From: Erwinia piriflorinigrans CFBP 5888
GTDB lineage: Bacteria; Pseudomonadota; Gammaproteobacteria; Enterobacterales; Enterobacteriaceae
Direction: 5' to 3'
Assembly (NCBI RefSeq): GCF_001050515.1
Contig: NZ_CAHS01000017.1
Coordinates: 62,001-126,000 of the forward strand
Length of the DNA: 64,000 nt
Shown: one piece after another, positions 15,460 through 27,585 of the stretch
How positions within the stretch are numbered: the stretch's first letter is position 1
How the letters are laid out: each line of letters starts with the position of its first letter
The notes under the pieces: generated by a model
Database searches by the model: none
The model's input: only the letters and a program-made list of their open reading frames with translations
Told to the model about the DNA's origin: nothing
Program-made: the position numbers and the translations under genes

Positions 15460-15908
15460 ATTTAAGATTGCCTGTACGACAGTGAACGTCGATTTCGTAA
15501 CTATTCCACGCTATTTCCCTTTTTAAGCTGCCTGTGCGGCAGTGAACATCAAATGTCCAGCGGCATCTTTTCGCAAATGCCTCTAAGCTGCCTGTGCGGC
15601 AGTGAACGTGCAGGCGGTACGCCAGATTGCTGTGCCGTGCTTCTAAGCTGCCTGTGCGGCAGTGAACACGGCCGTTTCACCCGCCGCGTGGATGTCGAGC
15701 TTCTAAGCTGCCTGTGCGGCAGTGAACTTAATGGCCGGGCGTGGTGCATTCCACGGAAACTTCTAAGCTGCCTGTGCGGCAGTGAACTCCATCATCGCCC
15801 ACGGGTTGTTCGTTGAATTCTTCTAAGCTGCCTGTGCGGCAGTGAACAACTTAGCGCTGCAATGTTAGCCCTGATTGCAGCTTCTAAGCTGCCTGTGCGG
15901 CAGTGAAC
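15460..15908 (-). CRISPR. CRISPR array 1, type I-F repeats (8 repeats, 7 spacers)
   Basis: 28-bp repeats (window strand core TAAGCTGCCTGTGCGGCAGT) recur every 60 bp with 32-nt spacers; the spacer nearest cas6f is 33 nt. On the minus strand they read as the canonical I-F form GTTCACTGCC...CTTAGAA, so transcription runs leftward from a leader at the high-coordinate end. The two low-coordinate repeats (15460-15487 and 15520-15547) are degenerate, the first strongly, as expected for the trailer end. The hairpin stem CTGCC/GGCAG is intact in the others. The array lies directly after cas6f, the usual I-F layout. Confidence 0.96.
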
Positions 15909-16039: not shown

Positions 16040-16594
16040 TTAAAACCAGGGCACGGTGGCCGTGGCACTTAGCCCGTAGGAGCTAAAGCTGCCCTCGCAG
16101 CGGGCGGACAGCAGCGGGCCATGCTCAATAAACAGCCGCCAGGCGTGACCATTTGAACCACTCTTTATCTGCAAATAGGGTAAATCGCTGCGCTGCTCGT
16201 TAACCACGCTGATCCGCTCTGCGGCCTGCGCTTCGTTGAGCCAGCCCTTATTGACCGAGCGGCGGCGCAGGCGTTCAGCACTGCTTTTAACCTGTACACG
16301 CCGCACGCTGCGCCACACGGCTTGCGGTGGAACCGGGGCGATATCGGTACAGGAGATATAATCGGTTAACCCCCTGTCCCAACCGCTGTGCTGCAAGGCA
16401 TGTAAATCATCCTGCGTACCGTGCAGCCGGATGCGGTCGCCCAGCGTCACCTTGACGCCGGGGAAGCTGATACCGATACGGCCATTCGCCGTCTGCCTCA
16501 GCACCTGATGCAGGCGCATAAACACCTGTGCCAGCAGTACCGCTTCACCGATCTCCTCATCCACCCGCACGCGAATATCCTGATAGCGATCCAT
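16040..16594 (-). CDS. cas6f: CRISPR endoribonuclease Cas6f (Csy4)
   Basis: This 184-residue I-F crRNA-processing enzyme cuts at the 3' base of the repeat hairpin and stays bound. The N terminus MDRYQDIRV matches the family, the catalytic histidine is H29 in FMRLHQVLR, and the arginine-rich helix SSAERLRRRSV contacts the stem. The C terminus ends in the typical VPWF. The second of two tandem ATGs is chosen because it fits the family start and gives AAGGGGG a usable spacer. It follows csy3 after a very short gap. Confidence 0.95.
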   Translation of the reverse strand: MDRYQDIRVRVDEEIGEAVLLAQVFMRLHQVLRQTANGRIGISFPGVKVTLGDRIRLHGTQDDLHALQHSGWDRGLTDYISCTDIAPVPPQAVWRSVRRVQVKSSAERLRRRSVNKGWLNEAQAAERISVVNEQRSDLPYLQIKSGSNGHAWRLFIEHGPLLSARCEGSFSSYGLSATATVPWF

Positions 16595-16603
16595 CATGCC
16601 CCC

Positions 16604-17608
16604 TTACTCGCTTTTCTCGCCAAATACGCCACCACGGATTAAAATCGCCATCACGTAGTGCTGCTGCTCCATATCCGGTTGTTTATCTTTGGTCACCCAG
16701 TTATCCAGCAGGGTATAAAAATCCATTTTCTTTATCGGCTGACGATAAGCGATTCCCCGGCTGGTCACCGAACCGTAAGGTTCAACGGAGATCGGCCCTA
16801 CGTCCAGTTCATCCGCGTCCGGATACCAGCTATCGATGGTGCGCAGCGCATTGCCAATCTTCTGCGAGTGAATGGCCGCCGTGTCGTCAATCTGGTAGAG
16901 CAGCTTGCTTTTTTTACTGTTGCCATCCAGCACCAGCTCCTGCGAAGGGAATACCTCCTGGCCGTTACCGAGATAGACCTGGGCTTCGACGTTAAACAGC
17001 GCAAAGCTGTTGCCGCTCAATCCCTGTTCTATCGCCTGTGCCAGCTCCAGTAAATCGCCCTGCGGCTGGCTGAATGCCAGTAGGCTGTAGTTATGGCCGT
17101 CAAACTTCCAGCGCTTTTCGCCGCTGGTTACCTGCACCGCAACACGCCCGGCACCCAGGCGGTTACGCCATAAGAAGCGCCCGTTAGCGATGTTTTCAGC
17201 GTAGCGTGCGGCAAGCGTGCTGAAGCCGTGCTGAGCAATATAGCCGTCAATCACCGCCGCCAGCGCCGCCTGATACGCCCTGTCGTTACATACCGCTGGT
17301 GTGGCAAGATCGCCCAACACGCGCAGGGTAAAACAGACTTTCAGGCTGTCGCAGTTATAAGGCAACGCGGCCACATCAACCTTCTGAAGATTCGGTTTTT
17401 GGATCTCAGCATCCAGTTTTAGCGGATCGCTGGCGATGGCGTTTTTCAGGCGGTTGGAAATAGTGCCGCGTACCGCTTTCTCCTGAATTTTTATCGGCGT
17501 CCAGTTTTGCTTATCCTGCCATTTCCCGGCCAGCATAATGGCATCAGAGTTAGATAACTTGCGCTCGAAGGCCAGCACGGAGGCGGTTTTAATAGCTGAT
17601 TTAGCCAT
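16604..17608 (-). CDS. csy3: Type I-F Cascade backbone protein Csy3 (Cas7f)
   Basis: The 334-residue Cas7-family subunit forms the six-copy backbone along the guide. It matches P. aeruginosa Csy3 in [43 protein letters not shown] and the C-terminal [10 protein letters not shown] and IRGGVFGE blocks. It sits between csy2 and cas6f in one operon. Confidence 0.96.
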
Positions 17609-17631: not shown

Positions 17632-18573
17632 TTAGTTGTAGTTGATGTCATCATCTTCATCGTCAGGATAATCCTGGTCGCACGCCGTTTGTTCGCCACG
17701 GCACAGGTAATAGTCGTCCTGATGGTGATAGCGCCACAGCAGATGGCGTAAATCATCGATGCGGTGCAGCCCGCGCCACTCGCCCACGCCGTACACCGCC
17801 TCGGTAAAACGAAACGGCGTTTCCGTATCGCGGCTGTTGGCCACCTCTCCCGGCGGATAGAGCGGCGAGATGGCGCGATAGCCGGTCATCAGCGGCACCA
17901 GGTAGCCTGCGCCGGGTTTCGGCTGGTATTGCCACTGCACATTGCTGTCCGCTGGCGTTGCCCCGTCATCCGCCTGCATTTTTAAGGCGGCAAAATCGAG
18001 CCATGCATCCAGCATCTCCGCCTGCGGCTGCTGGTCGTGGTGCTGCGCCAGCAGCGCGGAGCGATCCAGTAAGGCGAAACCGGGCAGCAGGCGGCGCATG
18101 ATTTTGCGCGTCTCGCCGTCATCCTGCGGCCAGCCGCCGATCTGCACCTGGCCGACCGAGGTGACCGTACCGCCAGCCAGCCGTAAGCGCTGACACAGAT
18201 TAGCCAGCGTTTGCGTTAGCTCTGCCACCCCCTGTTCGCCACCGGCAATGCTGCCGTGACACTCCATCAGCAGTGAAACCGTCATATGCATGCGCCCTTC
18301 TTCATTAAAGGCGGCGGTTTTCGCTTCTTTGGTCAACGGATTACGCGTGAGTGCAAACTGGTAGTCGTGCCCTGACGTATAGGCATGTACCTGCTGCTGA
18401 TGGCAAATCACCCCACAGCCGGACAGAGTGATATTGTGGCTCTGCTGTAGCTTGCGCGATAAGGCATGGGTAAAGCCGAGAAAATGAGTGATGGCCGGAA
18501 AGCCCCAGGTCAGGCCGGCAATGGCATTGGCGTTTTCAACCCGCAGATGGCGTAAGACAATCAGCGCGCTCAT
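17632..18573 (-). CDS. csy2: Type I-F Cascade subunit Csy2 (Cas5f)
   Basis: The 313-residue Cas5-type protein caps the 5' handle of the crRNA together with Csy1. Family features include the N-terminal [20 protein letters not shown] and [19 protein letters not shown], and the C-terminal [19 protein letters not shown]. The start overlaps the csy1 stop by 4 nt, indicating coupled translation. The tail is acidic (DDEDDDI). Confidence 0.95.
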
Positions 18574-19907
18574 GGCAGATCCTCCGCAAGGTCTTTTTCC
18601 AGCTCGCGCAGCCGCTGCTTAAACAACAGAGCGGTTGAGAAGTGACGGCGTTCCGTCTCGCCCATATTCAGCCTGTCACTGTGTAAATGACGGCTTAGCC
18701 AGTGGCCGAAATCACGCGCCACTTCGTTTTTCCAGTCGCCGCCCTCACGTTCGAACTGAAATTCCGTATCATCCTGGCTGCGCCACGGGTCAAGCCACAG
18801 CTGCTGCGAACGTTTTAGTACGCAGTCTGGATGCGCGCTCCAGCCACGCAGTTCCGTCTGGTTCTGCACCCCGGCGACATAGTTAAACAGGATATCGATA
18901 ATTTCATCGGTCATCGCCAGCCGCTGCTGGCGAATGTCCAGCGGCTTGACACGCCGTAAAAAGCGGCCCAGTCGCTGAATGACCGGCCACGCCTGGCGGG
19001 AAAAGTCGTTAGAGGAATTAAAGATCGATTTGTGTTGTGACGGCGGGCGGTTCTGGGTTTGCCACACCGGCGGGGCGCAGGGCAATAACCAAACTTTTCC
19101 GCCGCGTACGCTGTTTAAATAGGAGATATTCTGCGGCTTGGTGCCGCCGAACTGGGTAATGGCGGTACCCGGAAAAGTCACCAGCGCTTCACCATGCCAG
19201 CTTTTGGCTTTCAGCGCCGCTCGCGCCGCTTTGGTCTCTTCACTAAATTTGGTGCTGATAATACGTTGATTCAGGGCATGGGCCAGCGAGGAAGAGAACA
19301 GCGGGCTAAGCAGATGATACTGCCCGTCAGCAATGGGAAAGTAGATCTGTTTGGCCAGCTTATGGCTGGCAGGCTGGCGATCAACCAGCACCTGCTTAAA
19401 TCCGCTTACCCAGCTGGCGCACAGTTCAGGATCATCGGTGAGCGACTCCAGTGCCGAGTAGTCGCCACGTTGCAGGCTGGCAATTAATGAATCCCCTTCC
19501 ACCTCGCTTTGCAGCAGTTTGGCAACGTCGAGAGCGGCAGCATTGCAGGCGATATCAAGCGCCGACTTTTGCAGGGTTACGGTGGAGAGATACGCTTCAT
19601 GCTGACCGCTGCCGCTGGTAAATATGCTGCTGCCGCGTGCATCGCTATGGGTAAATTTTACGGCGTGTGTCACCAGCTTGATCTGCCCGGCGCGGCTGGC
19701 GGCATCACTAAGCCAGGCCTGCGGCTGGTACTTTTGCTCCAGCTCGGCGCGCTGTTGCTGAAGCTGCTGGCGCAGCACGCTGATTGCATCCTCTGACGCT
19801 AACGCGGCCAGTTTTTTCGCGCTCTCTTTATCAAACGCTTCCAGCTTTGCCGTTTTCCGGGCGGCAATATAGCTGGTGATAAAAGACGCCAGGGTTTCTC
19901 GCAGCAT
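18570..19907 (-). CDS. csy1: Type I-F Cascade large subunit Csy1 (Cas8f)
   Basis: This 445-residue subunit recognises the PAM and holds the crRNA 5' end. It shows family blocks [38 protein letters not shown] and [15 protein letters not shown] 6 nt before ATG 19907 decides the start; the frame runs on to 19928. It is the first gene of csy1-csy2-csy3-cas6f and is preceded by a small hydrophobic ORF on the same strand. Its promoter region contains the match to the mini-CRISPR guide. Confidence 0.96.
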
Positions 19908-19952
19908 ATGATCTCCTTTGCTATGCATGCACTGAATTAAACTCCAAAATCC

Positions 19953-20075
19953 CTATAACCTTATGATATTTAAGTTAACATTAATACTGAGGGAATCGAT
20001 CTGTGAATTACAGGCCAGTATGATGATAGCCAAACTTATGACGACCCAAAGTAAATTTCTAAGCAGCACACTCAA
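19953..20075 (-). CDS. 40-codon hydrophobic peptide upstream of csy1 (CreT-like candidate)
   Basis: Directly after AGGAG (20083-20087) an ORF opens with TTG (7-nt spacing) or GTG 20078 (4-nt spacing). It runs 40 codons: a short N-terminal stretch with one Arg, a hydrophobic helix LLWVVISLAIIILAC and a polar tail. ILAC at residues 19-22 resembles a weak lipobox. No family is recognised. The ORF lies between its presumed promoter (20100-20128) and csy1. A target for the nearby mini-CRISPR guide covers the -10 to start-of-transcription zone. By analogy with creT of CreTA modules it could encode or be a toxin; it could also be only a csy1 leader peptide. Confidence 0.45.
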   Translation of the reverse strand: MSVLLRNLLWVVISLAIIILACNSQIDSLSINVNLNIIRL

Positions 20076-20084
20076 CACATCACT

Positions 20085-20110
20085 CCTAAATTTAAAAAAC
20101 CTATATTTTT
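20085..20110 (+). promoter_or_regulatory. PAM plus protospacer-like target of the mini-CRISPR guide, over the csy1/small-ORF promoter
   Basis: CC at 20085-20086 is followed by TAAATTTAAA, identical to guide positions 1-10. With a 1-nt offset, CTATATTTT is also shared. CC immediately 5' of the protospacer is the type I-F PAM. On the minus strand the target covers a candidate -10 (TATAGG, 20100-20105) and the likely transcription start, and the PAM complement lies in the AGGAG ribosome-binding site of the 40-codon ORF. Confidence 0.7.
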
Positions 20111-20128
20111 AAGATACTCCAGTCTGAA
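20100..20128 (-). promoter_or_regulatory. Candidate promoter of the small ORF and csy1 operon
   Basis: TTCAGA (20123-20128) and TATAGG (20100-20105) are separated by 17 nt, each 4 of 6 to consensus. It is the best sigma70-like pair upstream of csy1 and overlaps the guide target. Confidence 0.45.
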
Positions 20129-20208
20129 GCGCAGTGCCACCAAGTTTGCGGAATTTTATGCCCGGCGTGTGGGAAGCTGCTGATTCTGGCTCAGCATGGT
20201 TAAAAATC

Positions 20209-20237
20209 TTGATAGCGGGAAAAGTAATGCTGTACTC
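20209..20237 (+). promoter_or_regulatory. Candidate promoter of the mini-CRISPR
   Basis: TTGATA (20209-20214), a 17-nt spacer and TGTACT (20232-20237), with TG at 20229-20230 forming an extended -10. The predicted start falls at about the first degenerate repeat. Confidence 0.55.
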
Positions 20238-20242
20238 TTGCC

Positions 20243-20319
20243 AGCACTGCTGAACAAGCAGCTTAGAAATAAATTTAAAATATCTATATTTTCCCACTGC
20301 CGAACAGGCAGAAACTGAT
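20243..20319 (+). ncRNA. Mini-CRISPR: two degenerate I-F repeats flanking a 21-nt guide (CreA/CreR-like)
   Basis: The first degenerate repeat (20243-20270) keeps 22 of 28 positions of the array repeat, including the full 5'-handle CTTAGAAA. Its hairpin CTGCT/AGCAG carries a compensatory change of the normal CTGCC/GGCAG. The second (20292-20319) keeps CACTGCC and the CTGCC/GGCAG hairpin but loses the sequence after the Cas6f cut site, which is not needed there. Between them is TAAATTTAAA... (20271-20291). It reads on the plus strand, opposite to the two arrays and the cas genes. Cas6f cleavage would release one short crRNA-like guide. This matches the design of CreA antitoxin RNAs and cas-autoregulatory CreR RNAs known from other type I systems. 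Confidence 0.75.
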
Positions 20320-20335
20320 TGATTTTGATAAAAAA

Positions 20336-20357
20336 ACGGCACCCTTACGGATGCCGT
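20336..20357. terminator. Bidirectional intrinsic terminator between mini-CRISPR and brnA
   Basis: ACGGCACCC pairs with GGATGCCGT (one mismatch) around TTAC. On the minus strand TTTTTTT follows, ending brnTA. On the plus strand a TCTCTTTTCTTC tail would end the mini-CRISPR transcript. Confidence 0.8.
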
Positions 20358-20367
20358 TCTCTTTTCT

Positions 20368-20664
20368 TCAGAGCTTTATTTCTGTTGGCTGATGGGTCTT
20401 TAACCAATCCTGTAGCGCCATATCCATCCGCGTTTGCCAGCCCGCGCCCGATGCCTTAAACGCACCGATCACCTCCGGCGTATAGCGCACGCTTACCGCT
20501 ATCTTTGGCTGTGCTTTTTGCGGACGACCGCGCTTTTTCAACGGCTTCAGTTTCAGCTGCGGATCTTCCAGAAGCATGCTGTCTTCATCATCCGCCACGG
20601 CGGCATAAATTTTTGCGTCTTCTTCTGCGCTGGGGAAGACGGTTCCCGGTTTAAGTTTCGGCAT
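20368..20664 (-). CDS. brnA: BrnA-family antitoxin
   Basis: The 98-residue partner of BrnT has an acidic N-terminal half (ADDEDSMLLEDP) and a C-terminal ribbon-helix-helix-type segment (KIAVSVRYTPEVIGAFKASG, then GWQTRMDMALQDWL). This is the BrnA/DUF4415 pattern. ATG 20664 has AAGGAG upstream and overlaps the end of brnT by 14 nt, typical for this pair. It neutralises BrnT and probably represses the shared promoter. Confidence 0.85.
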   Translation of the reverse strand: MPKLKPGTVFPSAEEDAKIYAAVADDEDSMLLEDPQLKLKPLKKRGRPQKAQPKIAVSVRYTPEVIGAFKASGAGWQTRMDMALQDWLKTHQPTEIKL

Positions 20665-20929
20665 AACGCTGAATCTCCTTCCTGGTGGCAAGGCGCAAAC
20701 TGATTATCCGGTAAACCTCTTCATGCTCGGTGAAACAGACGGAAAAAATTCTATTACCCAGCCTGGCAAGGCCATAGGTTAAACCAATCAACCGGATTTC
20801 ATCAAAAGGCTGCCGATTATCTTCATATACGACCATTTCATCCCAGTCCAGCAAGGCGCTGTCAGCGAGTGAGTAGCCGTGCTTACGTCTGTTTTTCACA
20901 TCCTTGTCAGGATCGTAGCAGATATCCAT
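20651..20929 (-). CDS. brnT: BrnT-family toxin (DUF497)
   Basis: This 92-residue RelE-fold RNase-like toxin has family marks: DPDKDVKNRRKHGYSLADS at the N terminus, IRLIGLTYG with RLGNRIFSVCFTE in the core, and IISLRLATRKEIQRY at the end. BrnT inhibits translation by RNA cleavage. The pair has its own promoter and is inserted between cas2-3 and csy1 in the same orientation. It could stabilise the CRISPR locus, which is an inference. Confidence 0.88.
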   Translation of the reverse strand: MDICYDPDKDVKNRRKHGYSLADSALLDWDEMVVYEDNRQPFDEIRLIGLTYGLARLGNRIFSVCFTEHEEVYRIISLRLATRKEIQRYAET

Positions 20930-20934
20930 AGATT

Positions 20935-21002: not shown

Positions 21003-24000
21003 CTACTCCGGCTGAAACACGCCTAATAGCGGATGAAAGTGCCATTCTTCGCTCTCAGGCAGAGTGCGCAGCACGATTTCACCAAAGCGCAGACTGACCT
21101 CCTCCAGCTCCATCGTCAGGCTGTCGGCCAGCTGCTGCCAGACCTGCTGATAGTCCGGGGTAATCCAGGCACTGACCCCGGCAGCGAACGTCAGATCGGG
21201 ATAGGCGATCATGCTCTTTTTGCGCCCGGACGGGCCATCGTCAGGCTGCCAGATTTCTGGCTGATCACCCTCCTCGGCTATCAGCATAAAGTGCATATCT
21301 TCAGGCGTTGACTGACGAAACGGCTTACGCCGCTGCATTTCGCCACACCAGCTGGCCTGTTCGCGCCACCATAAGGCCGCACAGTACTCATTCGGCTCTT
21401 TCTGCTTTCCCTGCAACTCCACCATCAGTCGCTGGTGTTCCAGATCGGCCAGGTTAGCAAACAATGGACCTTTACCCACTTTTTGCCGGGACTGAATTCG
21501 TGGAATCGCGCTGATTGTCTGATACTGCTCTTTGTCGAGGATCTTCTGTAAATCGTGGCTCGCCAGCATATAGCCTTTTTGCTCAAACCCTGGCTTGCAG
21601 TAGGTCGGTTTCTGGCTATCCTGCGCCTTTAATGAGCAAATATTCTGCTGCAAAATATGCACATTTTCGCTCTGTGCTTCCTGCTGACGATGGCGCTGTA
21701 CCCTGCCCGCCAGCTGGATCAGCGATCGCATTGAGCTGGGTTCGGCAATCGCCCAGTCGTAATCGTGATCGCGACCCACTTCCGCTACCGAGGTCGCCAG
21801 CACTACAAACAGATGATGCTGTTGCGGATGCTGCTCCATCGCTTCGGCGATCTCCGCCACCTGCCAGATCGCATCGGGCTGATGGCGAGTTAAGGTGGCA
21901 TCCAACCGCTGTTCAAAATGCGAACGCATCGCCAGCGGGTGCCGACTGTGATAAACACAGTAATGAATATGAGTATCTTCCGCTGCCTCAGTCGCCAGCA
22001 GCTGCTGAGCAACGGCCACCAGTGGATTGATATTGGCGAAGCGCACCACGCCTACCGATACCGTTTTGGGCAACTCCTTATGGCGCTGATGGTGAGCATG
22101 ATGCAGCGTCATCATCGACTGCAAAATGACCTGCGCCATATGGGGGTAAATCGTCGCCTCATCCCGCGCGGGGGGAGCCACCGGCGCTATCCAGCCACGC
22201 CTCAGTACCGGCTGTTTAGACAGCCAGCCGACTCGCCTCGCAACAAACTCTTGATGCTTTTGCATAAACTCCTGCGGCAGGCTCGGCTGGGCGGTAAGCA
22301 CCTTCTCTGCAACATTTTCATCAAACCATGCGCAGCAAATATTGCCGTCAACGGGCAGGCCACAGGCGTGCTGGAAGATCTCGCGCCCGCTGCGGTAAGC
22401 GTTAAACAGCGCCAGTACCAGCGCGGGCGCCAGGGTTGCCGAGGAGAGCAGCACGCGCGAACCCAGCATACCTGCCCAGTTCACCAGCCGACACAGCGCG
22501 GGCAGATCGTCGATATCAAAATCGTCCGGCTCGTCGAGGACCAGATCCGAGGTTAACAGTCTTAGCATCGGCGCTATCTGCCTGCCGCCGCGTAACCCTT
22601 CGGTCGCCCCGATTAAATGATCGATGGTAGTCACCAGCACCGGAGCGCTCAGCAGCTTATTTAACTTAGTATTACCTTTGAGCCAGCGGCTTAAGCCCCC
22701 TTCATCAAGGCTGCCGTCGTAGCTGACGTACTGGTTTTCCTCTAGCAACGCCTCTGCTGATTCACTGCCGGTATCGTGCGAAACCGGGCTATCTTTAGCC
22801 TGCTGATGCAGCTGGGTCACCGCCTGTGAACCCACCAGTACCGCCAGATCGTCCTGTTCCAGCTTCAATTTTTCCCGCAGCGCATCGCCGGTTTGCAGCG
22901 TTAAGGTGCGTAGCCCCAGCGCCACCGCAAAGCGACAGCCTTTTTGTTCGTCGCTCAGCGCATACATAATGCGCGCATTGGCAAAGGTTTTACCGCAGCC
23001 GGTCGACGCCATATTAATGCCGAAAAAACCCTGTTGAAAGGCGCTCTCGCGCAGATCGCAGGTCTCCTGCCAGGCATTATCCTGCCAGCGGAACTTCTCA
23101 TCTGTGCTGCGTTTTTTAAATCCTTTATGACGGGTAATCGCTGGCAGGGTTTTGCGTAAATGCGGCAGGCTACGCGCCAGCAGCAGAGCATTTTGCGCCA
23201 CGCCGATATTATGCTCGTCCAGCCGCTGCTTCAGGCTGCCGCTGTCGCGGTCGGTATTGGCATACAGCAGACAGTCCGCGTCCTGCCAGCCCGGCGTAGC
23301 CGGTTGCGCGGAGTAGACGTGATCGGCCAGCATTAATGCCAGCCGCGCCATATGGCAGCTAAAGCGCTGATTGATATCGATTTGTGCCAGCCACGCTGGC
23401 TGAGCCAGCAGGCGCTGTGCCAGCTTGTGCGCTTTGCCACACCAGCGGCCGCTGCGCATCGGCGTCCCCTGCGGGAACTGCCACTGTTCCTGAAGATCGG
23501 CGGGTTTCCAGTCCTGATGATGATTGGCGGCGTTCCAAAGCGCATCCAGCTCCCTGATCAGCCAGCCATCGCAGTGTTCCAAGTCAGGCGGTAAATATGA
23601 AGCTGACTTTGATAAATCATTCTTTTTCGGGTAAACCGGCATACGGTGATGGGAGAGGATCAGCCACGCCACCACGCGCGCCACTGGCGATAAGGGGGCA
23701 AAAGGATTTGTAGTGTCCATCAGACCATCTTTTTCCAGCCCGGTCAGCATCGCCTGCTCATCCTGTGGCTCTATCTCACTAAGGGCAGCAATCCATGTCA
23801 GATCGTCACGCCCCGCAACCCAGGCACAGAACAGCCGCAGCGAAACCCACTCATGGCGGTAGGGCTGACAGCCTTTGATCCCTTTTTTCCCAACAAGCAT
23901 CTGCTGAAACAAGCTGTTGGACTTACCAAAATCATGAAACAACCCGGCAATAGCGGCCAGCAGGCTGACAGCCTCGACGCTGTGCCAGCTGTTTTCATCA

Positions 24001-24302
24001 GCGCTTTTCAGCACATCGCGCGAGGTGGTATCCGTTGGCACCCCGCCTTGCACGTTAAAACGGCGCAGATTGCCAACAACCCACAGCAGTTCGCTCTGTC
24101 CGGTGCTTTTTATCTGGTGGCAGGCCACGGCGGTATTGCGCCGTGCGGTTTTGCGCAGCAGCTTACGCAAGGTCAACAGCCCCTGTTGCGTAATGGCGGT
24201 TTGCCAGCAGCGGTCGCCTTTACGTTCGGCAAACTGATCGAGGATACGGCGGCTCTCTTCCAGCGCACGTTTGTTACACTGAGCAATCAATAAAACATTC
24301 AT
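21003..24302 (-). CDS. cas2-3: Cas2-Cas3 fusion nuclease-helicase, type I-F
   Basis: The 1099-residue protein is typical of I-F. A Cas2-like domain occupies about residues 1-95. An HD nuclease has HD at 123-124 (LFHDFGKS) and downstream histidines (YRHEWVS, SHHRMP). An SF2 helicase has Walker A STGCGKT (433-439), DEPD near 595, SSAT and a motif VI QLAGRVQRHRQ. It joins adaptation (with Cas1) and target degradation. The start overlaps the cas1 stop by 4 nt. No active-site loss is seen. Confidence 0.97.
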   Translation of the reverse strand: MNVLLIAQCNKRALEESRRILDQFAERKGDRCWQTAITQQGLLTLRKLLRKTARRNTAVACHQIKSTGQSELLWVVGNLRRFNVQGGVPTDTTSRDVLKSADENSWHSVEAVSLLAAIAGLFHDFGKSNSLFQQMLVGKKGIKGCQPYRHEWVSLRLFCAWVAGRDDLTWIAALSEIEPQDEQAMLTGLEKDGLMDTTNPFAPLSPVARVVAWLILSHHRMPVYPKKNDLSKSASYLPPDLEHCDGWLIRELDALWNAANHHQDWKPADLQEQWQFPQGTPMRSGRWCGKAHKLAQRLLAQPAWLAQIDINQRFSCHMARLALMLADHVYSAQPATPGWQDADCLLYANTDRDSGSLKQRLDEHNIGVAQNALLLARSLPHLRKTLPAITRHKGFKKRSTDEKFRWQDNAWQETCDLRESAFQQGFFGINMASTGCGKTFANARIMYALSDEQKGCRFAVALGLRTLTLQTGDALREKLKLEQDDLAVLVGSQAVTQLHQQAKDSPVSHDTGSESAEALLEENQYVSYDGSLDEGGLSRWLKGNTKLNKLLSAPVLVTTIDHLIGATEGLRGGRQIAPMLRLLTSDLVLDEPDDFDIDDLPALCRLVNWAGMLGSRVLLSSATLAPALVLALFNAYRSGREIFQHACGLPVDGNICCAWFDENVAEKVLTAQPSLPQEFMQKHQEFVARRVGWLSKQPVLRRGWIAPVAPPARDEATIYPHMAQVILQSMMTLHHAHHQRHKELPKTVSVGVVRFANINPLVAVAQQLLATEAAEDTHIHYCVYHSRHPLAMRSHFEQRLDATLTRHQPDAIWQVAEIAEAMEQHPQQHHLFVVLATSVAEVGRDHDYDWAIAEPSSMRSLIQLAGRVQRHRQQEAQSENVHILQQNICSLKAQDSQKPTYCKPGFEQKGYMLASHDLQKILDKEQYQTISAIPRIQSRQKVGKGPLFANLADLEHQRLMVELQGKQKEPNEYCAALWWREQASWCGEMQRRKPFRQSTPEDMHFMLIAEEGDQPEIWQPDDGPSGRKKSMIAYPDLTFAAGVSAWITPDYQQVWQQLADSLTMELEEVSLRFGEIVLRTLPESEEWHFHPLLGVFQPE

Positions 24303-25276
24303 TTTCCCACCTGGCTGTGCTGTCGGGCGGTGGCTTCCAGCGCGGCGATCATCGTATCTAACGCTTCAGCATTTTGCAGGCTGGTCAGGCAGCGCTGGCG
24401 GAACTCCTGCTCCTCTTCGCCCGCCATTGCGGCAAGAAACGCCTGTGGCAGAATCAACGCGTCCTTAATCAGATCGGCAACGTCAAACACCAGCCCACCA
24501 CGGCGGGTTTTGCCATGCAGCACCGGCAGCCCGTGCGGCAATCCTATTACCCAGCAGGCGACCGCCGCCAGGCCGTAGGCAAGATAATTGCCATGATCGA
24601 GAAAACGGTTGGCCGCATCGCTGCCGCCACCGCGTTTGGCACGGACAAAATCGCCGTAGTTCGCCGCCTGTGCCGCCAGTTTATATAGCGCTTTGGTCAT
24701 CACCGCTTCAAGAGCCAGCAGATCGGTGCTGTTGTTACAGCGCGCCAAGCCCTGTTCAAAGCGGTCAAGGATCGCCGTTAGCCTGGGTTCGCTAAGAGTA
24801 AAATTCTGCTCACGCATCATTTTGCTACCCAGCCATGACTGGCGTATCTGACTGATGCGCACGCGCTGAAACGCAATGGCGGTGCTGAGCCGTTTCTGCT
24901 CATCGAACCAGAAGCTGACCCAGTGCTGAAGATATTCAGTGGGGCGGTATTCACTTTGTGAGTTGAGCCACGAGACGTCGACCTCAACTTCATTGGCCGC
25001 ATACAGCGGCGTTCCGCCGCCGCCGCAAAACCCGACCAGGACCCCGGCGCGGGCAAACTCACGCATAGCCGCCTGGGTTACCGATGTGCCGGTACCCAGC
25101 ATCACCACCGTGGTATTGGCAATGGGAATATTCCAGTACAGAGACTGTTTACCTTCGTCGGTGACATATTCCACCCGGCCGCCGTTCACCAGCACCCGGC
25201 AGTATTGCAGATAATAAATATTGCTGCGTTTTGAGTGCAGAATGGTTTTTAAATCTGAAGGCTTAATCATTTCCAT
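24299..25276 (-). CDS. cas1: CRISPR integrase Cas1 (type I-F)
   Basis: The 325-residue integrase inserts new spacers together with Cas2-3. Family blocks LHSKRSNIYYLQYCRVLV, GTGTSVTQAAMREFARAGVL and HGNYLAYGLAAVACWVIGLP are present. The metal-binding region includes E in EAVMTKALYK, H in VLHGKTRRGGLVFD and the acidic VADLIKDA. AAGGA 8 nt before ATG 25276 sets the start; the frame extends 38 codons upstream without a good start signal. Confidence 0.95.
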   Translation of the reverse strand: MEMIKPSDLKTILHSKRSNIYYLQYCRVLVNGGRVEYVTDEGKQSLYWNIPIANTTVVMLGTGTSVTQAAMREFARAGVLVGFCGGGGTPLYAANEVEVDVSWLNSQSEYRPTEYLQHWVSFWFDEQKRLSTAIAFQRVRISQIRQSWLGSKMMREQNFTLSEPRLTAILDRFEQGLARCNNSTDLLALEAVMTKALYKLAAQAANYGDFVRAKRGGGSDAANRFLDHGNYLAYGLAAVACWVIGLPHGLPVLHGKTRRGGLVFDVADLIKDALILPQAFLAAMAGEEEQEFRQRCLTSLQNAEALDTMIAALEATARQHSQVGK

Positions 25277-25801
25277 ATGGAGCTTCCTTGTGGCAGGGTT
25301 ATTTGCTTGCTGATATCGGTGAAGTGGTGATATTCCCTGGATTAGTGATGTAGAACATACCATAACGTGTCGAAATCTGCCGCCGCGCACAGGGGCTATA
25401 TCGGCTATAAATAGTTGGCGGGCATGTCACGGTGTTGAGCTGAAAGTCATAACCTTCCTTTTTTTCTTCACCAACGAATCTACCCCTGCCCCTCATGAAC
25501 TGGATAGCTATAGTGGTAGTCGTAGCGGTTTTGGCCGATATTGATTCGCATTAACGCTGGCTGAAGCGTTATTTGTCATATCATCGAAAAGCCAAGAGGA
25601 TTAATTCGCTCTGAAAGTTCCCGTAGTTAAACAGTCTTCGCCTTTTGCCTCTATAATCTTGTCAAAGGTAAAAAAACGGCGCACCTTGTTGTGTGACCAT
25701 GATTATAATTATTAAAATATTAAGCCAATTGTTGATTACATATGTTGACAAGGAAATTTTCAGTAGTCAGGATTGATTGCTCATATAATGAGGGATTAAA
25801 T
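25277..25801. other. Intergenic region between cas1 and the microcin cassette
   Basis: About 525 bp between divergent units, AT-rich, expected to hold the promoters of cas1 and of the microcin genes. A 19-codon hydrophobic ORF (ATG 25495) was noticed but has no ribosome-binding site. Nothing else is supported. Confidence 0.45.
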
Positions 25802-26320: not shown

Positions 26321-26605
26321 TTAGCCTACAGAGTAAATAACAGGAACAATAGGCCTGTAATTTCCTTTAAAATACACGGGAGTCCAGAGGGGGGGGTTAG
26401 AATAGTTTTTTATATTGCCTTCCACGGCCAAATATTGATTGCTGGAATGGTATATATATTTTTCGGTCCAGAAACCCTCCTGTACTCCAAAACGTAGATC
26501 CTCAAACTTATACTTGGTTAATGCTGTTTTCAACCGCTTGTTAACGATAACACTGGAAACGGTTCCTGCTGTCGCTCTGCTCCAAATAATATCAGGGGGG
26601 CACAT
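26321..26605 (-). pseudogene. Probable 3' remnant of a gene cut by the trailer end of array 2
   Basis: The frame (up to 94 codons) resembles a protein C terminus of the DUF1629/immunity type (PDIIWSRATAGTVSSVIVNK, then RLKTALTKY) by vague recollection. Its first Met lies inside the degenerate last repeat of array 2, without a ribosome-binding site, and the frame stays open into the array. The 5' part therefore seems to be missing. It converges with the microcin gene. Confidence 0.4.
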
Positions 26606-27585
26606 GCGCTGCCTGTACGGTAGTGAACGATAATGGATTTTGCATCAATAGCGGAGTTTTTTAAGCTGCCTGTACGGCAGTGAACGGGTTCCACTTGTTG
26701 CTCACTACATTTCGGTACTTCTAAGCTGCCTGTACGGCAGTGACCCCACGCGATTGCGTAGCATATCCACAGGTAGTCTTCTAAGCTGCCTGTACGGCAG
26801 TGAACAAGTTACGTTGTGGTTAAGGCCGGAACAGCCGCTTCTAAGCTGCCTGTACGGCAGTGAACAAATGGCAGAGGGTTACCCACCGAGCAGAATACTT
26901 CTAAGCTGCCTGTACGGCAGTGAACGTTGGCAAAAATAAACCCATCCATTTCTACAGCTTCTAAGCTGCCTGTACGGCAGTGAACTGGTGGGTATCAGAT
27001 GCCTGGATTCTCCGGGTCTTCTAAGCTGCCTGTACGGCAGTGAACTCGATTACTCCAGCACTACAGCCACACAATGACTTCTAAGCTGCCTGTACGGCAG
27101 TGAACACGGCTACCGACCAAAACCGGCATTTCTCCAACTTCTAAGCTGCCTGTACGGCAGTGAACTTTGCTGGCTAAAGCACCACCCCGATCCCCATCTT
27201 CTAAGCTGCCTGTACGGCAGTGAACATAAATGTACTTATATCTTGCTTCAATTTCAGCTTCTAAGCTGCCTGTACGGCAGTGAACGCTTTTTGATGGCGC
27301 TTTTTCCGGTGGTGGTGCTTCTAAGCTGCCTGTACGGCAGTGAACAATGCCTACGGTCGTTTGTTATGTATGCCACTCTTCTAAGCTGCCTGTACGGCAG
27401 TGAACCTTTATTGCTGCCTCAGCAACACACACTGGAACTTCTAAGCTGCCTGTACGGCAGTGAACTAGTACGGCGGGTCGGTAGCAATCAGATCGATCTT
27501 CTAAGCTGCCTGTACGGCAGTGAACGAGAGGTCACCACCTTTAACGGCGTTTCTCCGCTTCTAAGCTGCCTGTACGGCAGTGAAC
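26601..27585 (-). CRISPR. CRISPR array 2, type I-F repeats (17 repeats, 16 spacers)
   Basis: 28-bp repeats (window core TAAGCTGCCTGTACGGCAGT) occur at a strict 60-bp period with 32-nt spacers. The outermost low-coordinate unit has a 29-nt spacer. The repeats at 26601 and 26658 are degenerate and the one at 26718 ends GACC, so the trailer is at the low-coordinate end. Transcription is leftward from the leader near 27586. The repeat differs from array 1 by one loop base (A instead of G). No two spacers are obviously alike. Confidence 0.97.

Follow-up and report, generated by a model that had tools for sequence, protein, structure and literature searches.

A candidate type I-F CreTA addiction module with a predicted membrane-peptide toxin in the cas locus of Erwinia piriflorinigrans

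Among the closest described systems, the type I-F CreTA module of Acinetobacter sp. WCHA45, which lies in the gap between cas3 and csy1, has been tested experimentally: the antitoxin function of its CreA RNA requires the Csy complex, and Cas1 and Cas3 are dispensable (PMC10097628). For the toxin ORF of a module from Citrobacter rodentium, no homologue is reported and no family is described in the available text of the study (PMC12055562). CreR and CrePA have also been reviewed (PMC12948488). A sequence-only reading of the locus presented here had proposed that a CreA/CreR-like guide sends Cascade to a promoter without cleavage, and had inferred that this occurs in a type I-F system. The core of that idea has strong support in our comparative data, although the gene lying under the target is not csy1; its occurrence in type I-F had already been tested in Acinetobacter and so is no new inference (PMC10097628).

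We interpret the locus as a type I-F CreTA addiction module, in which the membrane-peptide toxin creT is guarded by a crRNA-like CreA, and we assign this reading a probability of slightly more than three in four. The anatomy of the module, the covariation of guide and target with its pattern of bases flipped by Csy, the conservation of the peptide at protein level, and the linkage in E. coli between an intact peptide and a one-piece csy operon are established by sequence comparison. Transcription of CreA and creT, repression, toxicity, and action at the membrane are what we infer.

The stretch of DNA analyzed, hereafter the window, comprises 64,000 nucleotides of the E. piriflorinigrans CFBP 5888 genome (contig NZ_CAHS01000017.1, positions 62,001 to 126,000). 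Its csy1-4, cas2/3, and cas1 genes give near-full-length profile matches, so that the complete type I effector operon that accompanies CreTA modules is present (Table 1). A second toxin-antitoxin pair, BrnTA, is inserted between cas2/3 and creTA at 20368 to 20932, with the PF04365 and PF14384 domains side by side as is characteristic of BrnTA. On reading the sequences by eye, we saw a BrnA-like end beside creTA also in two relatives, G018 and G032. On the cas strand, the terminator-like hairpin between brnA and creA has a fold energy of −23.9 kcal/mol (z −7.6), and on the plus strand one of −13.5 kcal/mol (z −4.0); these energies refer to the window alone, the equivalents in G018 and G032 being recognized by reading the sequence. 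A pattern-based terminator scan did not list this hairpin.

Table 1. Features of the cas locus and of the putative creTA module, in window coordinates
Feature	Positions	Strand	Basis
CRISPR array downstream of csy4, orientation opposite to creA	15460..15908	-	
csy4 (cas6f), nuclease proposed to process CreA	16040..16597	-	PADLOC
csy3 (cas7f)	16604..17608	-	PADLOC
csy2 (cas5f)	17632..18573	-	PADLOC
csy1 (cas8f), start probably 19907	18570..19928	-	Pfam Cas_Csy1, PADLOC Cas8f
creT, hydrophobic peptide of 41 aa (GTG) or 40 aa (TTG at 20075), candidate CRISPR-repressed toxin	19953..20078	-	
Shine-Dalgarno AGGAG of creT	20083..20087	-	sequence
CC PAM of the target	20085..20086	+	
Target of the CreA guide (protospacer strand), PAM edge overlapping the creT Shine-Dalgarno	20087..20109	+	
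Candidate creT/csy1 promoter, GTGGCA-18-TATCTT, just upstream of the target	20111..20140	-	relaxed scan, 8/12
Candidate creA promoter, TTGATA-16-TGTACT, TG ahead of the -10	20209..20236	+	top match of relaxed scan
psiR1, degenerate I-F repeat with Csy4 hairpin, CTTAGAAA 5' handle at 20262-20269	20242..20269	+	
Predicted mature CreA-like RNA, 50 nt (8 + 22 + 20)	20262..20311	+	Csy4 cleavage rules
psiS, 22-nt AT-rich guide of CreA	20270..20291	+	20/22 identity to 20087-20108
psiR2, degenerate I-F repeat, hairpin retained and handle gone, source of the 20-nt 3' handle	20292..20319	+	
Bidirectional terminator-like hairpin between brnA and creA	20326..20370	.	fold energies
brnA, antitoxin gene of a type II TA pair within the cas locus	20368..20691	-	Pfam PF14384, 60 bits
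brnT, toxin gene partnering brnA (tested frame)	20660..20932	-	Pfam PF04365, 59.5 bits
cas2/3 fusion (cas3f)	21003..24302	-	Pfam, PADLOC
cas1 (cas1f)	24299..25390	-	Pfam, PADLOC
CRISPR array upstream of cas1, orientation opposite to creA	26601..27585	-	

The mini-CRISPR shows the arrangement expected of CreTA, a short guide flanked by two degenerate repeats in which a Cas6 hairpin and a 5' handle persist. As had been noticed from the letters, its repeats face opposite to those of the real arrays. psiR1, placed one base too high by the sequence-only reading (20243 to 20270), is indeed a degenerate I-F repeat with a hairpin: it differs from the I-F repeat at 6 of 28 positions, and its predicted hairpin has a 5-bp stem and a 5-nt loop, with an energy like that of shuffled sequences (z −0.9; 31 of 200 shuffles as good). 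The Rfam family CRISPR-DR4 matches it at 20245 to 20269 with 30.5 bits (E 1.5e-4), under the gathering score of 35 bits. The exact handle claimed for psiR1 is there in the form of CTTAGAAA, which we take to be the canonical I-F handle, yet among the 25 listed repeats of the arrays, CTTAGAAG is the ending of 20. The coordinates given for psiR2 were right, as was the description of a hairpin kept (5-bp stem; −8.6 kcal/mol; z −3.3 against shuffles) and post-cut bases lost. The guide, which had been counted as 21 nt, measures 22 nt and includes a single G or C. Both hexamers of the candidate creA promoter are present in the close relatives G018 and G032, as read from their sequences. None of the 22 spacers extracted from the two arrays matched the cas3-csy1 gap at 20 or more positions. 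We placed the ends of the CreA RNA by the rule of an 8-nt and a 20-nt handle, as in PMC10097628.

A near copy of the psiR1 repeat end (GCAGCTTAGAAAT, 20258 to 20270) was seen on the minus strand inside creT, at 20055 to 20067, where the sequence reads GCTGCTTAGAAAT. This copy has no hairpin ahead of it and is seen in G018 as well; it is possibly a coincidence or a trace of the origin of the module.

Guide and target are identical at 20 of 22 positions, or at 21 of 23 when 20270 to 20292 is compared with 20087 to 20109, with mismatches at positions 12 and 14 only. The match of the first 10 nt to 20087 to 20096 that had been reported therefore stands, but its extent was underestimated; the CC directly preceding the target on the correct strand was recognized properly. 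When the stretch from 19929 to 20241 was dinucleotide shuffled 5000 times, CC-flanked matches did not exceed 18 of 23, a value reached in 2 shuffles, and no other site in the 64-kb window matched the guide at 18 or more positions. A partial guide match to a PAM-flanked site adjoining the creT start, another hallmark of CreTA, is thus present. The claim that the target covers the best promoter on the csy1 side was generous: the stricter scan returned no promoter at the target or upstream of csy1, and the relaxed scan of the creT/csy1 strand gave three candidates matching at 8 of 12 positions. One of these is the hexamer pair just upstream of the target (20140 to 20111), and a similar pair is found at about the same place in G018 and G032.

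Between the target and csy1 lies creT, an unannotated gene that the sequence-only reading had overlooked and that has GTG or TTG, but no ATG, as its possible start codon. The equivalent start is absent from G032, where a 37-aa ORF beginning with GTG remains. Another ORF considered as creT, located on the plus strand upstream of psiR1 (20158 to 20253, 31 aa), was rejected, its ATG being missing in G018 and G032.

To place the locus among its relatives, we surveyed cas3-csy1 gaps. Csy1 was found in 60 of 392 genomes of the family and in 10 of 37 genomes of the genus. The first 59 loci (L014 to L072) consist of 50 of the 61 family matches, the 11 weakest being omitted, and 9 further loci of the genus; with 80 named loci retained of 159 found, 139 gaps were obtained, 110 of them unique. 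Gap lengths are bimodal (54 short and 56 long unique gaps, the long ones including near relatives and loci whose cas3 end was not located, so that a fixed stretch was used). Modules were detected as a hairpin and a handle with at most two changes, together with a CC-flanked target; in its strict form, the detector required at least 9 matches over positions 1 to 5 and 7 to 11. Strict modules occur in 41 of the 56 long gaps, in none of the 54 short ones, and in 1 of 1120 shuffled sequences, and the loose threshold raised these numbers to 42 of 56 long gaps and 104 of 2240 shuffles. No module was detected at the loose threshold in 14 long gaps (L027, L037, L050, L060, and L085, for example), yet one of the 14, L067, does hold a module, the gap sequence first taken having been incomplete. 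A class-wide sample of 369 genomes, 32 of which have Csy1, yielded modules in 9 of the 29 loci scanned besides that of the window (shuffles, 1 of 580).

The best target is on the creA strand in 35 of 42 modules and on the other strand in the remaining 7, some of which may be chance matches. In five of the seven, the long-gap modules of L032, L089, L095, L112, and L149, which include Photorhabdus, the best opposite-strand target is about 390 to 1640 bases away, beyond creA. One 65-aa ORF of L149 has no Pfam family. CreA modules were also seen outside Enterobacterales in L135 (Gammaproteobacteria UBA6173) and L136 (Alishewanella aestuarii), where the ORFs are longer and less hydrophobic. By eye, all that the 150-nt gap of L029 and L103 seems to retain is the end portion of a creT-like peptide, with creA undetected, as if a single deletion had removed the antitoxin together with the N terminus of the toxin.

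Across 34 nonredundant modules, guides agree with their own targets at 15.0 of 20 positions and with the targets of other modules at 7.7, and the own target ranked first in 27 of the 34; G032 is an exception, with a match of 10 of 20 and its own target in sixth place. Since positions 1 to 5 and 7 to 10 were used for module selection, their match rate is biased upwards. Positions 6 and 11 to 20, which served as tie-breakers only and not for selection, give a score of 6.24 for own pairs, against a maximum of 4.65 in 20,000 permutations. By position, position 11 matches in all 34 modules, and positions 6, 12, and 18 match in 16, 9, and 12 of them, respectively. The module of Pantoea coffeiphila, a 35th found later, is mismatched at positions 6 and 11.

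Across seven hand-chosen clusters, in which within-cluster pairs are not independent, we counted 46 two-sided changes that kept pairing versus 11 one-sided ones at positions 1 to 5 and 7 to 11, and 1 versus 56 at positions 6, 12, and 18. Without the diverged Cedecea cluster and L018, the counts are 22 versus 4 and 1 versus 52, respectively. The alignment of relatives that had been suggested as a check on covariation of guide seed and target thus revealed co-change, as expected of CreTA, in the close clusters. In G032, which belongs to the clade of the window, positions 4 and 11 are altered in guide and target alike. Positions 13 to 17, with 15 two-sided versus 58 one-sided changes, do not covary, so that tight pairing ends at about position 11. 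In type I-F effector complexes, every sixth base is flipped out, and the freedom of positions 6, 12, and 18 is therefore a footprint of Csy-type recognition.

To look for the peptide elsewhere, we examined 33 of the 35 modules with a creA-strand target, namely, those with less than 400 nt between target and csy1. An ORF of 25 to 80 aa containing a strongly hydrophobic stretch is present on the cas strand in 29 of them, on the reverse strand in 3 of 33, and in 186 of 3300 shuffles. Two of the four modules lacking such an ORF, L056 and L062, have hydrophobic ORFs of 20 aa, under the length limit. The ORFs are mostly 40 to 58 aa long and hydrophobic, and the peptides, although diverse, share a common layout: an often basic N terminus, one hydrophobic span that often ends in KP and, in many, a SIFSI-like motif at the C terminus. 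Comparison at the sequence level shows protein-level purifying selection on them, with dN/dS values of 0.08 to 0.41 in 17 of 17 pairs from five close clusters and 0.23 for creT of the window versus G018. In all, 23 pairs were compared, G032 with its altered N terminus being left out; of the six pairs in the distant Cedecea/Leclercia cluster, four had saturated synonymous sites and two gave 0.29.

A database search with the creT peptide of the window returned no homologue candidate, and a search with an alignment of 19 peptides retrieved 15 proteins with E values of 0.1 or less; those that bear a name come from Pectobacterium, Yersinia, Leclercia, and Photorhabdus and are labeled hypothetical or uncharacterized. 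No Pfam family came near the cut-off for four peptides (best E, 0.17), no PADLOC family was found for two, and no report of the hydrophobic creT family appeared among the top-ranked results of a search of open-licence literature.

In the class-wide sample, none of the nine modules has a strongly hydrophobic ORF. The peptide is thus mainly an Enterobacterales feature and separable from CreA. Outside this order, the CreA module of Stenoxybacter acetivorans (L123) is followed downstream by a hydrophobic ORF of 35 aa that contains KP. In Pantoea coffeiphila (L073, 1472 to 3500), we observed a CreA-like mini-CRISPR with a CC-flanked target (9 matches over positions 1 to 5 and 7 to 11) and, downstream of the target and before csy1, a DUF6088/AbiEi-like gene followed by an AbiEii gene, a possible swap of the guarded toxin. 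With the peptide in Enterobacterales and AbiE-like genes in this Pantoea, CreA seems to guard different cargo across lineages.

E. coli offers a comparison within one species, the gap being carried by 237 of 5426 genomes. One lineage, of 37 genomes, has a gap 100.0% identical to that of E. coli 503025, where the intact peptide ORF was confirmed by reading two genomes, and in all 37 of these accessions csy1-4 is in one piece at 99.9 to 100% identity. The csy DNA of this lineage is found in 39 genomes, 37 of which were returned by the gap search; in SZQ1, one of the two extra genomes, the cas3 end, the module, csy1, and csy2 are missing, which looks like one deletion. In the other lineage (B; about 200 genomes), the peptide ORF was frameshifted in all five genomes inspected. 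Its defects include an internal stop in csy2 (UTI89 and APEC O1), IS100 inside the csy stretch (two genomes), and a truncated cas3 (STEC299), and csy1-4 carries no defect flag in muskdeer13-4 and FDAARGOS_1253, two of the five inspected. These genomes, which represent few independent events, would lend indirect support to addiction, as the pattern matches the prediction that the toxin is lost first and the effector then decays.

In the proposed mechanism, CreA would be transcribed from its candidate promoter, and Csy4 would cut both hairpins to release the 50-nt guide RNA. CreA would then take the Csy complex to 20085 to 20109, where it would cover the ribosome-binding site and start region of creT and so block this gene; as pairing spans only about 17 to 22 nt, versus the usual 32, cleavage by Cas2/3 would not be expected. 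Loss or mutation of the Csy complex, or its inhibition by an anti-CRISPR, would allow the peptide to be made and to harm the cell, and this harm would protect csy1-4 from loss. The terminator-like hairpin would separate cas1-cas2/3-brnTA from creT-csy1-4. Given such a hairpin between the two gene groups, a single promoter probably serves creT and csy1-4, and repression by CreA would extend to both. Probably, then, CreA also tunes csy1-4 in the manner of a CreR.

The guide could instead be a CreR-type autorepressor that serves to repress csy1-4, the small ORF being a leader peptide or a harmless accessory protein. The target is, after all, upstream of csy1 and on the strand of that gene, 45 nt separate the creT stop from the csy1 start on their common strand, the terminator-like hairpin would isolate csy1-4 from the cas1 promoter, and CreR RNAs are published for types I-B, I-E, and V-A (Liu et al. 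2023, via PMC13131331 and PMC12737573). We nevertheless hold this to be unlikely in view of the hydrophobic ORF that intervenes between target and csy1 in so many modules, the purifying selection on the peptides, and the occurrence of the intact peptide with one-piece csy1-4 in E. coli. As the nearest gene under the target is creT and not csy1, CreA is likelier to be an antitoxin than a pure autorepressor; given the 45-nt spacing on one strand and the terminator-like hairpin upstream, autorepression may accompany that role.

Were creT an RNA toxin, the small ORF would provide translation-initiation signals only, and precedents exist in the CreT of Acinetobacter and of haloarchaea, which act as RNA despite their mini-ORFs (PMC10097628; PMC8501985). 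The length, hydrophobicity, and protein-level selection of the ORFs found here make this improbable, as does CreT of C. rodentium, which is toxic only if translated (PMC12055562). Some features would suit a fossil, a decayed repeat pair with a chance or vestigial match that is now functionless: psiR2 is devoid of the bases after the cut, the guide is almost free of G and C, the psiR1 hairpin is no more stable than shuffles, and the 150-nt gap of L029 holds, by eye, a creT-like remnant only. We consider decay very improbable, however, because the match of guide and target is far above that of shuffles and two-sided changes have occurred in close relatives, two of them in G032.

With the CreTA addiction module as the preferred reading, it is tempting to go further and regard the cas3-csy1 gap of I-F loci as a general slot in which CreA guards exchangeable toxins, namely, membrane peptides in Enterobacterales, an AbiE-like pair in Pantoea coffeiphila, and others elsewhere. 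In the clade of the window, one Csy-bound site would control both the peptide and csy1-4, as a terminator sets these apart from the cas1 promoter. This is a tentative proposal, to which we give somewhat less than even odds. Antitoxin and cas autorepressor would then form one circuit, and a fall in Csy would induce the toxin and replacement Csy together, racing each other. What appears to be new is the family of hydrophobic, presumably translated peptides, its spread in Enterobacterales, the signature of covariation, and a control that the peptide gene likely shares with csy1-4. If the CreTA reading is correct, addiction to CRISPR would be common among Enterobacterales type I-F loci, those of E. 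coli lineages among them, and the guarded toxin would often be a translated membrane peptide and not an RNA. The module is a candidate for an alarm, built into the locus, against anti-CRISPRs, and it may be part of the reason that some I-F loci resist deletion. The signature (pairing at positions 1 to 5 and 7 to 11 and more weakly to about 17, with 6, 12, and 18 free) could be used to search for modules without relying on toxin homology. E. coli would be the natural comparison, with an intact-peptide, one-piece csy lineage on one side and, on the other, a broken peptide and several genomes with eroding cas or csy genes.

The Hok, Ldr, and TisB type I toxins are small, single-span hydrophobic peptides encoded beside a small RNA. 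In contrast to these, CreA would be a DNA-targeting guide and not antisense to the peptide mRNA, and the peptides have no Pfam family near the cut-off. CrePA (Shu et al. 2025) resembles the module in that a crRNA-like antitoxin represses a protein toxin, but CreP is described as typically a KilA-N protein (PMC12737573); of the peptides studied here, the four searched in Pfam have no family near the cut-off, and the two searched in PADLOC have none. CreR RNAs (Liu et al. 2023) are alike in having a mini-CRISPR guide at a promoter that possibly serves cas genes; they are described as generally uncoupled from a toxin gene (PMC13131331, PMC12737573), whereas the window has a small ORF between target and csy1. 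The C. rodentium module likewise lies between cas3 and the first Cascade gene, with creA on the opposite strand, and its 96-bp ORF is toxic only when translated; the toxin is repressed by Cascade, on which the module depends, and the system is of type I-E with another PAM (PMC12055562). The comparison with it is by described features. The Acinetobacter I-F CreTA shares with our locus the cas3-csy1 gap, the order psiR1-psiS (20 nt)-psiR2, the CC PAM, and a guide that pairs incompletely, at 17 of 20 positions with 6, 11, and 18 mismatched; its creT lies past the target and runs divergently from creA (PMC10097628). The BrnTA pair of our locus is not mentioned for it in the available text, and there a 33-bp mini-ORF that functions as RNA makes up creT, unlike the hydrophobic peptide of the window with its protein-level selection (PMC10097628). 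The module would thus work like CreTA as far as the sequence features tested go, and protein-level selection and the analogy with C. rodentium argue for a translated toxin rather than an RNA toxin.
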